Shown here: positions 662-19,501 of the stretch, piece by piece | How the letters are laid out: the number at the start of each line of letters is the position of its first letter | How positions within the stretch are numbered: the first letter of the stretch is position 1 | The notes under the pieces: model-generated | Database searches by the model: none | What the model saw: only the letters and a program-made list of their open reading frames with translations | What the model was told of the DNA's origin: nothing | Origin: Burkholderiales bacterium | Lineage (GTDB): Bacteria > Pseudomonadota > Gammaproteobacteria > Burkholderiales > Casimicrobiaceae | Length of the DNA: 32,515 bases | Assembly (NCBI GenBank): GCA_016790165.1 | Contig: JAEUPL010000040.1 | Span: 1 to 32,515 of the forward strand | Reading direction: 5' to 3' | Translations under genes and position numbers: made by a program

Positions 662-2944
662 TTAGGCTGTGGCTTCCTCGGCGGGTTCCTGAGGTGCATC
701 GCTCTCGGGAAACGCAAGCTTGACCTTGCTGTCTTCATCGATATCGATTTTCACCTTGCCGCCGCCCACCAAGCGCCCAAAAAGCAACTCATCGGCAAGC
801 GCCTTGCGGATGGTGTCCTGAATCAGGCGCGCCATCGGGCGCGCGCCCATTTGCGGGTCAAAGCCTTTCTTGGCGAGGAAGTCGCGCAGGCCCTGCGAGA
901 ACTCCGGATCCACCTTCTTTTCATGCAGCTGCGCTTCGAGCTCAAGCAGGAATTTGTCGACGACGCGCAAAATGACCTCGTGGGTAAGCGCGCCGAAGCT
1001 GATCGTCGCATCCAGCCGGTTGCGGAACTCCGGCGTGAACATGCGCTTGATCGACTCCATCTCGTCGCCGGCCTCTTTCGTGTTCGTGAAACCAATCACA
1101 TTCTTGGTCAGCGTCTCGGCACCCGCGTTGGTCGTCATGATGATGATGACGTTACGGAAGTCCGCCTTACGGCCGTTGTTGTCGGTCAGCGTGCCGTGAT
1201 CCATCACCTGCAACAGCACGTTGTAGATGTCCGGATGCGCCTTTTCGATCTCGTCGAGCAACAGCACGCTGTACGGGTGCTTGGTGATCCCTTCGGTCAG
1301 CTGGCCACCCTGGTCGTAGCCGACGTACCCCGGCGGCGCGCCAATCAAGCGGCTCACCGCGTGACGCTCCATGTACTCGCTCATATCAAAGCGCAGCAGC
1401 TCCACACCCAGGCAGTATGCGAGCTGGCGTGCGACTTCGGTCTTGCCTACGCCGGTGGGGCCAGAGAACAGAAAGGAGCCAATCGGCTTACGCGGATTGC
1501 CGAGACCGCTGCGCGCCATCTTGATCGCCGCCGCCAACGCATCGATCGCCTTGTCTTGGCCAAAGACCACGTTCTTAAGATCGCGGTCAAGTGTCTTCAG
1601 CGAATTGCGGTCATCGCTCGACACGTTCTTAGCCGGGATGCGCGCAATCTTGGCGACGATTTCCTCAATTTCGGTCTTGCCGATGGTCTTCTTCTGCTTC
1701 GACTTGGGCAGGATCTTTTGTGCCGCGCCCGCCTCATCGATCACGTCGATTGCCTTGTCCGGCAAGTGACGGTCGTTGATGTGGCGCGCCGAAAGCTCCG
1801 CTGCGGCGGTAATCGCAGCCGGCGAATATTTCACGTGATGGTGCGCCTCAAACTTCGGCTTCAGGCCACGCAGAATTTCCACGGTCTCGCCAATGGTTGG
1901 CTCGACCACATCGATCTTCTGAAAGCGGCGGGCCAGCGCATTGTCTTTCTCGAACACCTGGCGGAATTCAGCGTAGGTCGTAGCACCTACGCACTTGAGG
2001 GTGCCGTTTGCCAGCGCCGGTTTCAGCAGATTGGACGCATCGAGGGTGCCGCCGCTGGCCGCGCCTGCGCCGATGATGGTGTGAATCTCATCAATGAACA
2101 GGATGCCATTGGCCTTTTCACCCAGTTGCTTGAGCACCGCCTTGAGCCGTGCCTCAAAGTCGCCGCGGTATTTGGTCCCTGCGAGCAGTGCGCCCATGTC
2201 CAGCGAGTACACGACACAATCAGACAGCACGTCGGGTACCTCGCCATCGACGATGCGTTTGGCCAAGCCTTCGACAATGGCTGTCTTGCCTACGCCCGCC
2301 TCACCCACCAATAGCGGGTTGTTCTTGCGGCGGCGACACAGCACCTGTACCAGACGCTCAAGTTCTGCCGTGCGACCGATCATCGGATCGATCTTGCCAG
2401 CCCTGGCTTGAGCGTTGAGATTGACGGTAAAGTTTTCGAGCGCGCCTTGCGGAGCCTCTTCCTTCTCCTGCTCACCGCTACCGGCTTCGGCCTTCTCGGT
2501 CTTGTCTTTCGGCACTTTGCTGATGCCGTGGCTGATGTAGTTGACGACATCAAGCCGGGTGACGCCGCGTTGATTCAGAAAGTACACCGCGTGCGAATCC
2601 TTCTCACCAAAGATCGCCACGAGAACATTGGCACCAGTCACTTCCTTCTTGCCGGATGACTGCACGTGCAGGATGGCGCGCTGGATTACGCGCTGGAAGC
2701 CCTGCGTGGGTGTGGTGTCGCTTTCGCTGTTTTGTGGCAGACGCGGCGTGTGTTCGTTGATGAAGTTGGCGAGCGCCGTGCGCAACTCGTCGAGGTCGAC
2801 AGCGCATGCACGCAACACTTCGGCGGCGCTCGGGTTGTCCAGCATGGCCAGCAGCAGATGCTCGACCGTGATGAACTCATGGCGCTTTTGCCGGGCATCG
2901 ACAAACGCCATGTGCAGACTGACTTCCAACTCTTGCGCGATCAT
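662..2944 (-). CDS. clpA: ATP-dependent Clp protease ATP-binding subunit ClpA
   Basis: This 760-residue AAA+ unfoldase matches the usual length of ClpA (about 758). It forms a hexamer that unfolds substrates and threads them into ClpP in the cytoplasm. Residues 1-145 are the Clp N-domain that docks ClpS. The first AAA+ module has Walker A GEAGVGKT (214-221) and Walker B ILFIDE (281-286). The second has Walker A GPTGVGKT (495-502) and Walker B LLLDEIE (561-567). An IGF tripeptide at about 617-619 lies where the ClpP-docking loop is expected. An acidic, Glu/Lys-rich linker (about 145-168) separates the N-domain from the first module. The gene starts at the ATG at 2942-2944 and follows clpS on the same strand with a gap of about 120 nt, so it is probably co-transcribed. 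No clpP is in the window. Confidence 0.97.
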
Positions 2945-16101: not shown

Positions 16102-16482
16102 TCAGTAGGGCGTGCCCTGATGAAAGCGCATCACCCAGCCCTGCACGGTGTGCGACCATATCGAACTGCGATGCGCGCGCTCGACGACGCCGTCGTAAAC
16201 GACTTCGGAGTCATAGGTGACAAGCGCCGTGCAGGCATCAATCATCTTGATCTCCATGTTCGGTAGTGGCAGCTTCGCCGCGATCGCTTGTCCGCTCCGG
16301 CGAATGGCGTCGGCGCGGCGGTACACGCGCCCCGATCGTCCAAATTCCACGAAGTCGGCGGCAAAGCGCTCTTCCTGAAACGCCAGATCGAACCGTGACT
16401 CCGCTCGCCACATCGCTTCTTCAAGTTCGGTGAGTTCGATGCGCGCCTGTGGCGACAGCGTCGCCGTTTCTGGCCCCGACAC
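16102..16482 (-). CDS. DUF4440 (SnoaL/NTF2-like) domain protein
   Basis: The 126-residue protein looks like a single NTF2-like cone fold: a helical N-terminus ELTELEEAMWRAESRFD, a central FVEFGRSGRVYRRADAI segment, and beta strands ending in IWSHTVQGWVMRFHQGTPY. This Trp/His/Gln-rich ending is typical of DUF4440 proteins, whose function is mostly unknown. It starts at GTG 16480-16482, which shares one base with the TAG stop of the rRNA methyltransferase gene, so translation is probably coupled. The next gene downstream is the acyltransferase pseudogene. Confidence 0.8.
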   Translation of the reverse strand: MSGPETATLSPQARIELTELEEAMWRAESRFDLAFQEERFAADFVEFGRSGRVYRRADAIRRSGQAIAAKLPLPNMEIKMIDACTALVTYDSEVVYDGVVERAHRSSIWSHTVQGWVMRFHQGTPY

Positions 16483-17711
16483 TAATTGCCCCGCTCAAAC
16501 ACTGCCGCGAAAAAACCATCGCAGCCGTCACGATGCGGCAACAGCTGCGCAAAGCGTGCTTCGCCTGCTTCGTCGCCGCGCAACGACGTTGGCACCAGGG
16601 TCCAGTCCACATTCGCATCGAGAAATGCTTCCGCGATTTTCTCGTTTTCTTCTGCGAGCACGCTGCACGTCGCGTAAACGAGACGCCCGCCGGGCCGCAC
16701 GAGGCGTGACGCCGCGGCGAGGATGCTGCTCTGCTTTTCGATGAGTTCCTTGACGCTTGCCGGCGATTGCCGCCACTTGAGATCGGGGTTCCGCTTGAGC
16801 GTGCCGAGGCCGGAGCACGGCGCATCCACCAGCACGCGGTCGGCCTTGCCGATGAATTTGTCGAGGCGCTTGTCGTGCTCGCTCTCGATGCGCATCGTCT
16901 GCACGTTGCTGGCGCCGCTGCGCGCGAGGCGCGGGCCGAGGTTATCGAGCCGCTTTTCACTGACATCACAGGCGTAGAGCCGCCCCGTGCTCGCCATCAT
17001 GGCGGCGAGTGCGAGTGTTTTGCCTCCGGCGCCGGCGCAGAAATCGATGACCATCTCGCCGCGTTTGGCGCCGACGATTTGCGCGAGCAACTGGCTGCCT
17101 TCGTCCTGCACTTCGAGCGTGCCATCTTCAAACAGCGGGTGGCGCGAGATGTCCACGCGATGCGGCAAGCGAATGCCCACGGGTGAGAGCGGCGTGGCGC
17201 GCGCGTCGGGGAAACCTTCTTTCTGTAAACGGCCAAGAATGGCGTCGCGCTTGGCCTTGAGCGTATTGACGCGAAGGTCGAACGCGGCTGGTTCGAGCAA
17301 CGCATCGGCCAGAGCGAGTCGCTCGTCATTGCCGTACTGCGCGCCGAGCCGATCCCACAGCCAGGTGGGCAACTCGCGGCGCGGATGCGGCCCGAGCGCT
17401 TCGTCCGCCTTCAGGAATTTAGCGTAGCGGTCGTCCTCGCCCGGCGGCACCTTGGCGCGGCGACGAAACTGCCGCGCCAGCGCGGCCAGCGCAATGGCAT
17501 CGAACTTGGCGCCGTCGCCGGCAATCGCCTCCACCGACAGCCGATGCCGCAGCCACGCGTAGTAGCCCTCGGCCACGACGACGCGATCCTGAGAGCCCAC
17601 CCGCTTTTCGCGCAGCACGTAAGACAGCGTGCGGTCGGCAGGGTAGTCGAACTTGGCAGCGGACTGGATGGCAAAGGCAAGTGCGCTGAGCGCGGAGGGT
17701 CGGGCAAGCAT
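16482..17711 (-). CDS. RsmB/NOP-family rRNA (cytosine-5) methyltransferase
   Basis: The 409-residue protein is a SAM-dependent RNA m5C methyltransferase. The C-terminal catalytic domain shows the SAM loop DFCAGAGGKTLAL (223-235), motif IV DAPCSGLGTLKRNPDLKW with C299 and motif VI YATCSVLAEENE with C349, the two cysteines used in catalysis. The N-terminal 150 residues are helical, where RsmB has a NusB-like domain. E. coli RsmB (429 residues) methylates C967 of 16S rRNA; whether this is the true RsmB or a paralogue cannot be decided from sequence alone. The ATG at 17711 is preferred over 17735. It heads a pair with the DUF4440 gene. Confidence 0.9.
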   Translation of the reverse strand: MLARPSALSALAFAIQSAAKFDYPADRTLSYVLREKRVGSQDRVVVAEGYYAWLRHRLSVEAIAGDGAKFDAIALAALARQFRRRAKVPPGEDDRYAKFLKADEALGPHPRRELPTWLWDRLGAQYGNDERLALADALLEPAAFDLRVNTLKAKRDAILGRLQKEGFPDARATPLSPVGIRLPHRVDISRHPLFEDGTLEVQDEGSQLLAQIVGAKRGEMVIDFCAGAGGKTLALAAMMASTGRLYACDVSEKRLDNLGPRLARSGASNVQTMRIESEHDKRLDKFIGKADRVLVDAPCSGLGTLKRNPDLKWRQSPASVKELIEKQSSILAAASRLVRPGGRLVYATCSVLAEENEKIAEAFLDANVDWTLVPTSLRGDEAGEARFAQLLPHRDGCDGFFAAVFERGN

Positions 17712-17810
17712 GCGGCCATTGTAGGAGCGGCACATGCCAAGTGTGCATGCTTCGAGATGACATACTCACTCACGTCCACCGACGATCATTGCGGTGACAG
17801 GGAGCTTGTC

Positions 17811-18299
17811 ATGCTCATGCCCTCCAATCTGGATATCAACGTTGAGGCGGCCGCGTTGCGCCGCCACGGCCTGATCGGTCGTGGCGGTGAAATGGGCAAC
17901 GCTTTGTTTGCCATCGACATCGGCGCTCTCCCTTCAGAGGCGCGACAAGCCATCAACCTCATTGCTCAGGGCGGACCGTTTCCGTATCCGCAGCATGATG
18001 GGCACCGCTTCGGCAACCGCTTCGGTGATCTGCCGACGGGTGGTGAATACCTGGAGTTCACCGTGCGGACGCCGGGCGTAACCAATCGCGGGAAGCGACG
18101 CATCGTCGCGCGACGATCCGGCGTACTCTTCTTCACCGCCTGTCACTACGAGCGCGTGCCTGGTCAGATGTCACAGGAGCATCGGATCGCAGCCACCGCA
18201 CAGCTTGACGCACACTGGCGCAACGGCTTTTACGTAGTGACAGGTATTGACGCCCGAATGAGGAGCCGTCTGGCGGATGCGTTGCACGCGCTGCCGTAG
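17811..18299 (+). CDS. Guanyl-specific ribonuclease domain protein (barnase/RNase Sa fold)
   Basis: The 162-residue product carries a microbial ribonuclease domain at about 55-115. The family signature is clear: GPFPYPQHDGHRFGNR, LEFTVRTPGVTNRGKRRIV and FFTACHYE. By alignment with RNase Sa from memory, the catalytic triad is E82, R97 and H112, with nearly the same spacing as E54, R69 and H85. Such enzymes cleave RNA after G. Unlike secreted relatives it has no signal peptide: residues 1-54 are an unrelated charged segment, and about 45 extra residues follow the domain. AGGGAG 6 nt before ATG 17811 decides the start; ATG 17757 is an alternative. No barstar-like gene is adjacent. It could be a toxin, a detached effector domain or a decaying gene. 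Confidence 0.82.
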   Translation: MLMPSNLDINVEAAALRRHGLIGRGGEMGNALFAIDIGALPSEARQAINLIAQGGPFPYPQHDGHRFGNRFGDLPTGGEYLEFTVRTPGVTNRGKRRIVARRSGVLFFTACHYERVPGQMSQEHRIAATAQLDAHWRNGFYVVTGIDARMRSRLADALHALP

Positions 18300-18306
18300 G
18301 CGTCGC

Positions 18307-19473
18307 TCACTTCGCCAGCGCCCACATCTCCGCAATCAAATCACGCTTGCCCTCAAACCCAATTCCCGGTAACGAAGGCAAAGTCACATATCCGTTCTCG
18401 ACACGCACGCCATCCGGGAAGCCGCCGTAGGGCTGGAACAAATCCGGGTAGCTTTCGTTGCCGCCGAGGCCGAGGCCGGCGGCGATCGCCAGCGACATCT
18501 GATGGCCGCCGTGCGGGATGCAGCGACTGGGTGACCAACCGTATTCCTTGAGCATGTCCAGCGTGCGCAGGTATTCGACCAGCCCGTAACTCAGCGCGCA
18601 GTCGAACTGCAGCCAGTCGCGGTCCTTGCGCATGCCGCCGTGGCGGATCAGGTTTCTGGCGTCCTGCATCGAGAACAGGTTTTCGCCGGTGGCGAGCGGG
18701 CCGGCGTAGCTGTCGCCGAGGTTGGCCTGCAGCTCGTAGTCGAGCGGGTCGCCCGCCTCTTCGTACCAGAACAGCGGGTACTGCGCCATCGCCTTGCCGT
18801 ATTCGATGGCGGTCTTCAGGTCGAAGCGGCCATTGGCGTCCACGGCCAGTTGCTGGCCCGGCTTGAGCATCTTGAGCACGGCTTCGATGCGTTCGATATC
18901 GTCCTTGAGCGGTGCGCCGCCGATCTTCATCTTGACGACCGAATAGCCGCGATCGAGATAGCCCTGCATCTCGCCGCGCAGACCGTCGAGGCCTTTGCCA
19001 GGGTGGTAGTAGCCACCGGCGGCGTAGACGAACACCTTCGGGTTCGCCGTGCCGTTGCCATATTGCTTCGCGAGCATTTCATGCAGCGGCAGGCCTTCGA
19101 TCTTCGCCACGGCGTCCCACACCGCCATGTCGATGGTGCCAACCGCCACCGAGCGCTCGCCGTGACCGCCAGGCTTCTCGTTGGTCATCATGCAGGCCCA
19201 CACCTTGTGCGGGTCGAGGTTGGTGCCGGCCGCGTTGACCAGCGACGCGGGGTCGGCCTCCATCACCCGCGGGATGAAGCGCTCGCGCATCAGATTGCCC
19301 TGACCGTAGCGGCCATTGGAATTGAAGCCGTAACCGATCACCGGTTTGCCGTCGCGGATGACATCGGTGACAACCGCGACGAGGCTCAGCGTCATCTTGC
19401 TGAAATCGATGTAGGCGTTGCGGATCGCCGATTTGATTGGGCGCGTGGATTCGAGGATGTGGGTGATTTTCAC
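18307..19473 (-). CDS. tarD: D(-)-tartrate dehydratase, enolase superfamily
   Basis: The 388-residue enzyme closely follows my memory of Bradyrhizobium D-tartrate dehydratase (389 residues), including RNAYIDFSKMT, NEKPGGHGERSVAVGTIDMA and the C-terminal NESYPDLFQPYGGFPDGVR. Catalytic and metal residues line up with a one-residue offset: K183 in KMKIGG, D212 in VDANGRF, E238 in FWYEEAGDP, E264 in ATGENLF and H321 in IPHGGHQ. The enzyme dehydrates D-tartrate to oxaloacetate with Mg2+. The GTG at 19471-19473 matches the family start; a TTG at 19491 is possible. It is the last gene of a minus-strand cluster with an SDR, a Bug receptor and a DapA-family lyase. Confidence 0.9.
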   Translation of the reverse strand: MKITHILESTRPIKSAIRNAYIDFSKMTLSLVAVVTDVIRDGKPVIGYGFNSNGRYGQGNLMRERFIPRVMEADPASLVNAAGTNLDPHKVWACMMTNEKPGGHGERSVAVGTIDMAVWDAVAKIEGLPLHEMLAKQYGNGTANPKVFVYAAGGYYHPGKGLDGLRGEMQGYLDRGYSVVKMKIGGAPLKDDIERIEAVLKMLKPGQQLAVDANGRFDLKTAIEYGKAMAQYPLFWYEEAGDPLDYELQANLGDSYAGPLATGENLFSMQDARNLIRHGGMRKDRDWLQFDCALSYGLVEYLRTLDMLKEYGWSPSRCIPHGGHQMSLAIAAGLGLGGNESYPDLFQPYGGFPDGVRVENGYVTLPSLPGIGFEGKRDLIAEMWALAK

Positions 19474-19501
19474 AGTGTGTATCCGTGGCAATAAGTCTTG
19501 A

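Follow-up and report, generated by a model that had tools for sequence, protein, structure and literature searches.

Introduction

Glu60 of barnase and Glu46 of RNase T1 serve in guanine recognition, and we take Glu41 to be the guanine-recognition residue of RNase Sa. The excerpts of published work cited here attribute catalysis in RNase Sa to His85 and Glu54 (PMC2791442), compare MqsR with RNase Sa (PMC2791442, PMC9636575) and describe YoeB as using Glu, Arg, His and Tyr in a similar way (PMC3814384). Barnase–barstar pairs are reported to be widespread, as are barnase domains at the tips of polymorphic toxins (PMC3482391). The absence of barstar has precedents, being reported for B. pumilus, B. 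altitudinis and B. licheniformis (PMC8837141); for B. licheniformis, an inhibitor gene adjoining the RNase gene is described in PMC5021464. Binase, according to the cited part of PMC8837141, is inhibited by barstar with lower affinity than barnase. No RNase Sa relative without the guanine-recognition Glu was recognised in the literature covered, most subscription journals being outside its scope.

The stretch of DNA analysed here (the window; 32,515 nt) is contig C26 of a 3.76-Mb assembly of 41 contigs that is 92% complete, and three tRNA genes, Thr(ggt), Gly(tcc) and Tyr(gta), lie at 172–580 on its minus strand. The subject of this study is P0001, our name for the 162-aa product of the ORF at 17811–18299 (+). 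The initial annotation read it as an active, unprotected guanyl-specific RNase that ought to be toxic in the cytoplasm. We give a probability of about 0.5 to a different reading, that P0001 is an RNase Sa-fold protein, acquired and remodelled, that has lost or changed its guanyl-specific activity and would be tolerated without an inhibitor of its own; the main rival to this reading is a recent relic.

Domain match and layout of P0001

Pfam family PF00545 (Ribonuclease) covers residues 39–114 of P0001 (E = 5.9e-14; 52.8 bits against a gathering score of 24), and RNase Sa chains from the PDB align to residues 35–114 (E about 1e-14), placing the protein in this family by its RNase Sa fold, while NCBIfam, PADLOC and PHROGs returned no match. 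The RNase domain is not a chance match; chance may still account for the head. The locus is laid out as follows.

16482..17735, minus strand: rsmB, 16S rRNA methyltransferase gene, left border of a variable slot, start at 17735
17800..17804, plus strand: GGGAG, likely ribosome binding site, six bases 5′ of the ATG (read from the sequence)
17811..18299, plus strand: P0001, RNase Sa-fold protein, 162 aa (ORF list, Pfam, PDB chain matches)
17811..17909, plus strand: head, residues 1–33; no signal peptide, low-confidence model, no Pfam match
17910..18149, plus strand: RNase Sa-like core, residues 34–113 (Pfam, PDB chain matches, model)
18150..18221, plus strand: inserted loop of ~24 residues, about residues 114–137, low pLDDT (alignment, AF2)
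18222..18251, plus strand: predicted last strand of the RNase fold, about residues 138–147 (AF2, control run)
18252..18296, plus strand: predicted C-terminal helix and end, residues 148–162 (helix 148–160), beyond the part aligning to RNase Sa
18307..19491, minus strand: mandelate racemase/enolase-family gene, right border of the variable slot, end at 18307

Several features first read from the DNA are borne out here: the GGGAG is a likely ribosome binding site, the two neighbours (rsmB and the mandelate-racemase-family gene) both lie on the minus strand, and P0001 is an orphan relative of barnase and RNase Sa that is odd within its family in having neither a leader nor an adjoining barstar. 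The open frame extends from stop to stop over 356 aa, its upstream part being antisense to rsmB, and P0001 is a 162-aa ORF, not the C-terminal tip of a long trafficking protein of the kind that carries Tox-Barnase domains in polymorphic toxins. A promoter scan, which is a weak test, found no plus-strand promoter-like site upstream of P0001; this counts against our preferred reading and for a relic.

The missing signal peptide was assessed as the best 12-residue Kyte–Doolittle mean, a measure of hydrophobicity and not a signal-peptide program. The best window in the P0001 head reaches 1.42, compared with a median of 2.64 in the 218 other rows of the family alignment; 209 of these rows reach 1.8 upstream of the domain, and the six that fall below P0001 include two cut short upstream. 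The head thus has no strong hydrophobic segment, but its description as 54 unrelated residues fails, because the RNase fold begins at about residue 30–35 and helix 42–53 is part of it. Pfam found no match in the head alone or the tail alone, and AF2 gave the head no confident fold.

The tail had been taken as 45 extra residues, and this is correct for the loop (114–137) and the helix (148–160), which are new, but not for residues ~138–147, which are predicted to close the RNase fold as its last strand. The best models of both AF2 runs place this strand within the tail. Against our preferred reading, two of the five models of the first run were poor (mean pLDDT 50 and 40), as were four of five in the control run (34–41), and block means of pLDDT for head and loop were low in both (37–61 and 35–56, respectively). 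The position of the strand also makes simple read-through, following a frameshift or the loss of a stop, a less likely origin of the tail, as do the other frames after His-Tyr, which by eye do not carry on the canonical end. We rejected the tail as a barstar remnant: its last 22 residues look alike by eye, and against a barstar HMM built from neighbouring barstars 3505 of 5000 shuffles score as well.

Catalytic residues are kept and the Glu41 position is changed

Positions of the active site were assigned by alignment to RNase Sa, and the corresponding codons are given below.

18004..18025, plus strand: two exact 10-nt copies, 18004–18013 and 18016–18025, encoding RFG..RFG
18021..18023, plus strand: Phe71 codon TTC, at the RNase Sa Glu41 position (alignment)
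18054..18056, plus strand: Glu82 codon (RNase Sa Glu54, general base; alignment)
18087..18101, plus strand: Arg93 to Arg97 codons (RNase Sa Arg65 to Arg69; alignment)
18141..18149, plus strand: Cys111-His112-Tyr113 codons (RNase Sa Asp84-His85-Tyr86, Asp changed; alignment)

P0001 had been credited with the full E82-R97-H112 set of a guanyl-specific enzyme. The catalytic part of this claim stands, since Glu54, Arg65, Arg69, His85 and Tyr86 of RNase Sa are kept as E82, R93, R97, H112 and Y113, but Glu41 has become Phe71 and Asp84 has become Cys111, and the replacement at position 41 leaves the labels “full” and “guanyl-specific” unsupported. Of the 219 distinct family rows, 214 have Glu at position 41, two Ala, one Asp and one Asn; Phe occurs there in P0001 only. 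The equivalent of RNase Sa Phe89 is displaced to Phe140 (alignment and both models).

The TTC codon of Phe71 sits in the second of the two 10-nt copies, which lie 12 nt apart; a direct repeat of this kind occurs in 45 of 2000 codon shuffles of P0001. A slip that copied RFG over the usual REG may account for the three-base change giving Phe71. A perfect 12-nt inverted repeat pairs 18139–18150, over the catalytic His-Tyr codons, with 18233–18244 in the last strand. Such a repeat turns up in 26 of 2000 codon shuffles.

Barstar genes accompany intact sites among the fetched relatives

To relate active sites to inhibitor genes, we drew on 227 RNase domains from fetched loci (219 distinct rows), collected by their likeness to P0001, with some search matches (e.g., in G814) falling outside the set. 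Within 900 nt downstream of the RNase gene no barstar was found in nine of the 227, namely P0001 itself, present three times (L001, L061, L103), L012, L035, L242, L099, L204 and L237. An intact site was defined as Glu41, Glu54, Arg65, Arg69 and His85, and L242, intact and at a contig edge, was omitted from the comparison. A barstar lies downstream in 210 of 212 intact-site rows, compared with two of six changed-site rows including P0001 (Fisher P-value 2.4e-6). The difference persists with P0001 omitted (two of five; P-value 5.9e-5), and the intact-site count becomes 209 of 211 when a gene of G042 that entered twice (L047, L071) is counted once.

The two intact-site rows without barstar, L012 and L035, are actinobacterial. 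Those with changed sites and no barstar are P0001 and the leader-bearing L099 (2839–3309, plus strand; Caballeronia), L204 and L237 of the same order, which have Ala or Asp at 41, Ala at 54 and Tyr at 85 and form one clade (83–89% alike); an intact copy with its barstar is also present in each of the two genomes that carry L204 and L237 (L201 and L238). Two changed-site rows keep a barstar, L220 (E54D) and L236 (N41, P65), and count against our preferred reading. In L236 (genome G048) the RNase domain ends a longer protein, as in a polymorphic toxin tip, with the barstar 88 nt on. Because sampling followed similarity and the pseudoenzymes are one clade, the barstar counts are not independent events; the pattern fits retention of barstar where an enzyme needs restraint, with few independent events behind it.

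The statement that P0001 lacks a barstar is correct for its surroundings, none being present within 900 nt downstream, but not for the genome. A single barstar was found in this 92% complete assembly, on contig C7 (E = 3.3e-25), and it follows a canonical secreted RNase (1091–1477, minus strand; L002) with leader, RNase domain and Glu41; the barstar ORF as listed (1426–1920, minus strand) overlaps the RNase ORF, and its true start may lie further in. P0001 shares 45% identity with this RNase over the domain and has its nearest relatives elsewhere (L081 and L004, 61% over 75 columns), indicating that it is no recent copy of the genome's own RNase.

Genomic slot, orthologue searches and divergence

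We compared the surroundings of rsmB among relatives, and the same enolase-family gene lay within reach of it in two only, G005 and G008. The two genes are about 200 nt apart in G008, where the slot is nearly empty, and in G005, whose RsmB is 93% identical, it is filled by a DUF3667 gene (L062, 431–1297, plus strand), so that the P0001 gene appears as an addition at a variable place. Among ORFs of at least 80 aa, no other lies wholly between rsmB and the enolase-family gene, where an antitoxin might have been sought. An 11-nt imperfect inverted pair (17702–17712 and 18342–18352) falls within both neighbouring genes, and the repeats around P0001 suggest no insertion mechanism. Carriage by a mobile element or phage was considered and rejected, as phages and viral contigs gave no match to P0001; in plasmids, 16 records at E 0.1 match parts within residues 25–136, none spanning 80% of the query.

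Whether homologues keep the same head and tail was a point raised by the initial annotation. No orthologue with both was found in 60 relatives or in 399 order, 369 class, 64 family and 398 phylum genomes (overlapping samples, each counting the own genome, searched at differing E-value cut-offs of 1e-3, 1e-9, 1e-18, 1e-12 and 1e-17), nor in a further contig search (38 loci), plasmids, phages or viral contigs. Some matches extend past the domain across stop codons, e.g., G104 (34–157) and G415 (31–144) among the order genomes, and L088 and L098, fetched from among such matches, have normal ends. The tail alone gave a best foreign match of E 0.026 in the 60 relatives and a single foreign match in the 399 order genomes (E 0.004, with a stop), which is about chance level. 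Very divergent orthologues, or ones in unsequenced lineages, are possible; as it stands, the absence of an orthologue speaks against our preferred reading and for a relic.

P0001 departs from the family at three of 28 columns conserved at ≥95%, one of these being the displaced Phe, compared with 33 of 53 variable columns (P-value 6e-6). That its changes avoid conserved columns indicates divergence mostly under constraint and argues against a relic. As many conserved columns are departed from by three of 76 relatives, L037 (5/30), L029 (4/28) and L049 (3/29), so the test would come out the same if a normal RNase of an unsampled lineage had recently lost function. An earlier set comprised 80 loci minus the copies L003, L061 and L071. 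In a tree of 86 columns, itself poorly resolved, P0001 sits on a very long end branch (1.93; median 0.1), as a relic might. Codon adaptation of the ORF is 0.575, just below the lowest of the 20 other window genes (0.576–0.752), again in line with a relic, and the tail's value of 0.540 (as low in 3.3% of 152 coding pieces of the same length) also counts against our preferred reading; antisense pieces average 0.55–0.56 in two frames, near the tail value. In head and tail alike, G+C by codon position follows a coding pattern.

Discussion

The replacement of Glu41, together with the tracking of intact sites by barstar genes, largely dissolves the puzzle of toxicity and leaves the view of P0001 as an active G-specific RNase unsupported; the first impression of an unguarded guanine-specific toxin is probably wrong. 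We propose that an RNase Sa-fold gene, through horizontal acquisition or long separation, would have been remodelled for life inside the cell. In this view it has kept the acid-base cleavage residues (Glu82, Arg93, Arg97, His112, Tyr113), the guanine-recognition Glu and the export signal have disappeared, and two additions have arisen, the ~24-residue loop right after the catalytic His-Tyr and the predicted C-terminal helix. Its RNA cleavage would most likely be weak, altered in specificity or absent, and not fast and guanyl-specific, in which case it would need no barstar of its own and could be tolerated in what is presumably a cytoplasmic location. The alternatives offered at the outset (a toxin with a built-in inhibitor, an effector cargo or an inactivated relic) were of the right kind, and we weigh them below.

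The possibility that deserves most attention beside this one, although we hold it to be the less probable, is that P0001 is a relic: a secreted RNase gene in the variable slot that is minus its signal peptide, barstar and guanine recognition, and that is in the course of being lost, its product not made or inert. Besides the divergence, codon and promoter results above, the existence of barstar-less pseudoenzyme copies among its relatives speaks for it, and the 10-nt direct and 12-nt inverted repeats could be scars of slippage or template switching. The ORF nevertheless has no stop or frameshift, its catalytic residues are kept, the last strand is predicted to have survived an insertion of ~24 residues, and the extra helix is confident in the best models.

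Beyond the remodelled RNase Sa-fold protein that we favour, we also advance, with considerable reserve, the idea of an intracellular RNA-cutting or RNA-binding protein from the barnase lineage that resembles YoeB, in which the catalytic residues survive without a guanine pocket, the loop and helix confer a new substrate choice or self-restraint, and barstar is not needed.

An active RNase kept safe by the C7 barstar in trans, or exported as a cargo effector (e.g., by a type VI system), is less likely than either the remodelled protein or the relic, and in our view unlikely. Its catalytic residues are intact, a barstar is encoded in the same genome, and a sheath gene, VipA (C8, 50889–51341, plus strand; L252), makes a type VI secretion system in the host probable; PMC8837141 reports binase-type RNases from Bacillus species that lack barstar, as well as inhibition of relatives by barstar in vitro. 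Set against this are the loss of the guanine-recognition Glu and the flanking genes, rsmB and a mandelate-racemase-family gene. In a DUF4123 search, the controls themselves gave no match.

That the loop or head covers the active site as a built-in inhibitor, freed by cleavage or a partner, is very improbable: the loop does begin directly after His112-Tyr113, and most of head and loop lies outside the part matching RNase Sa2, but pLDDT is low for both, the tail has no relatives in Pfam or, above chance level, in the 60 relatives and 399 order genomes and is not a barstar piece, and the head has no Pfam match.

The worry over unguarded cytoplasmic RNases thus gets a simple test, in that among the fetched relatives the inhibitor gene accompanies intact sites, and four of the six changed-site cases lack it. 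If active, P0001 would show a barnase-type enzyme losing base specificity and inhibitor together, and would provide an RNase Sa scaffold from nature whose active-site rim has been remodelled; an inactive P0001 would be one more pseudoenzyme of the family.

Among known systems, YoeB and MqsR (BECR fold) are alike in mechanism only, whereas P0001 matches RNase Sa in sequence and fold; at P0001 no antitoxin gene was recognised among ORFs of at least 80 aa. The C7 RNase belongs to the same family but has a hydrophobic leader, Glu41 and a barstar gene next to it. The pseudoenzymes L099, L204 and L237 share with P0001 an altered active site and the lack of an adjoining barstar, and in G284 and G152 the pseudoenzyme is a second copy alongside a canonical pair; unlike P0001, they have changed equivalents of Glu41, Glu54 and His85 and keep the leader and a normal C-terminus. 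Compared with the Streptomyces guanyl-specific RNases Sa, Sa2 and Sa3 (PF00545), P0001 has Phe for the guanine-recognition Glu and Cys for Asp84, has no signal peptide, and carries the ~24-residue insertion after His-Tyr and an extra C-terminal helix.
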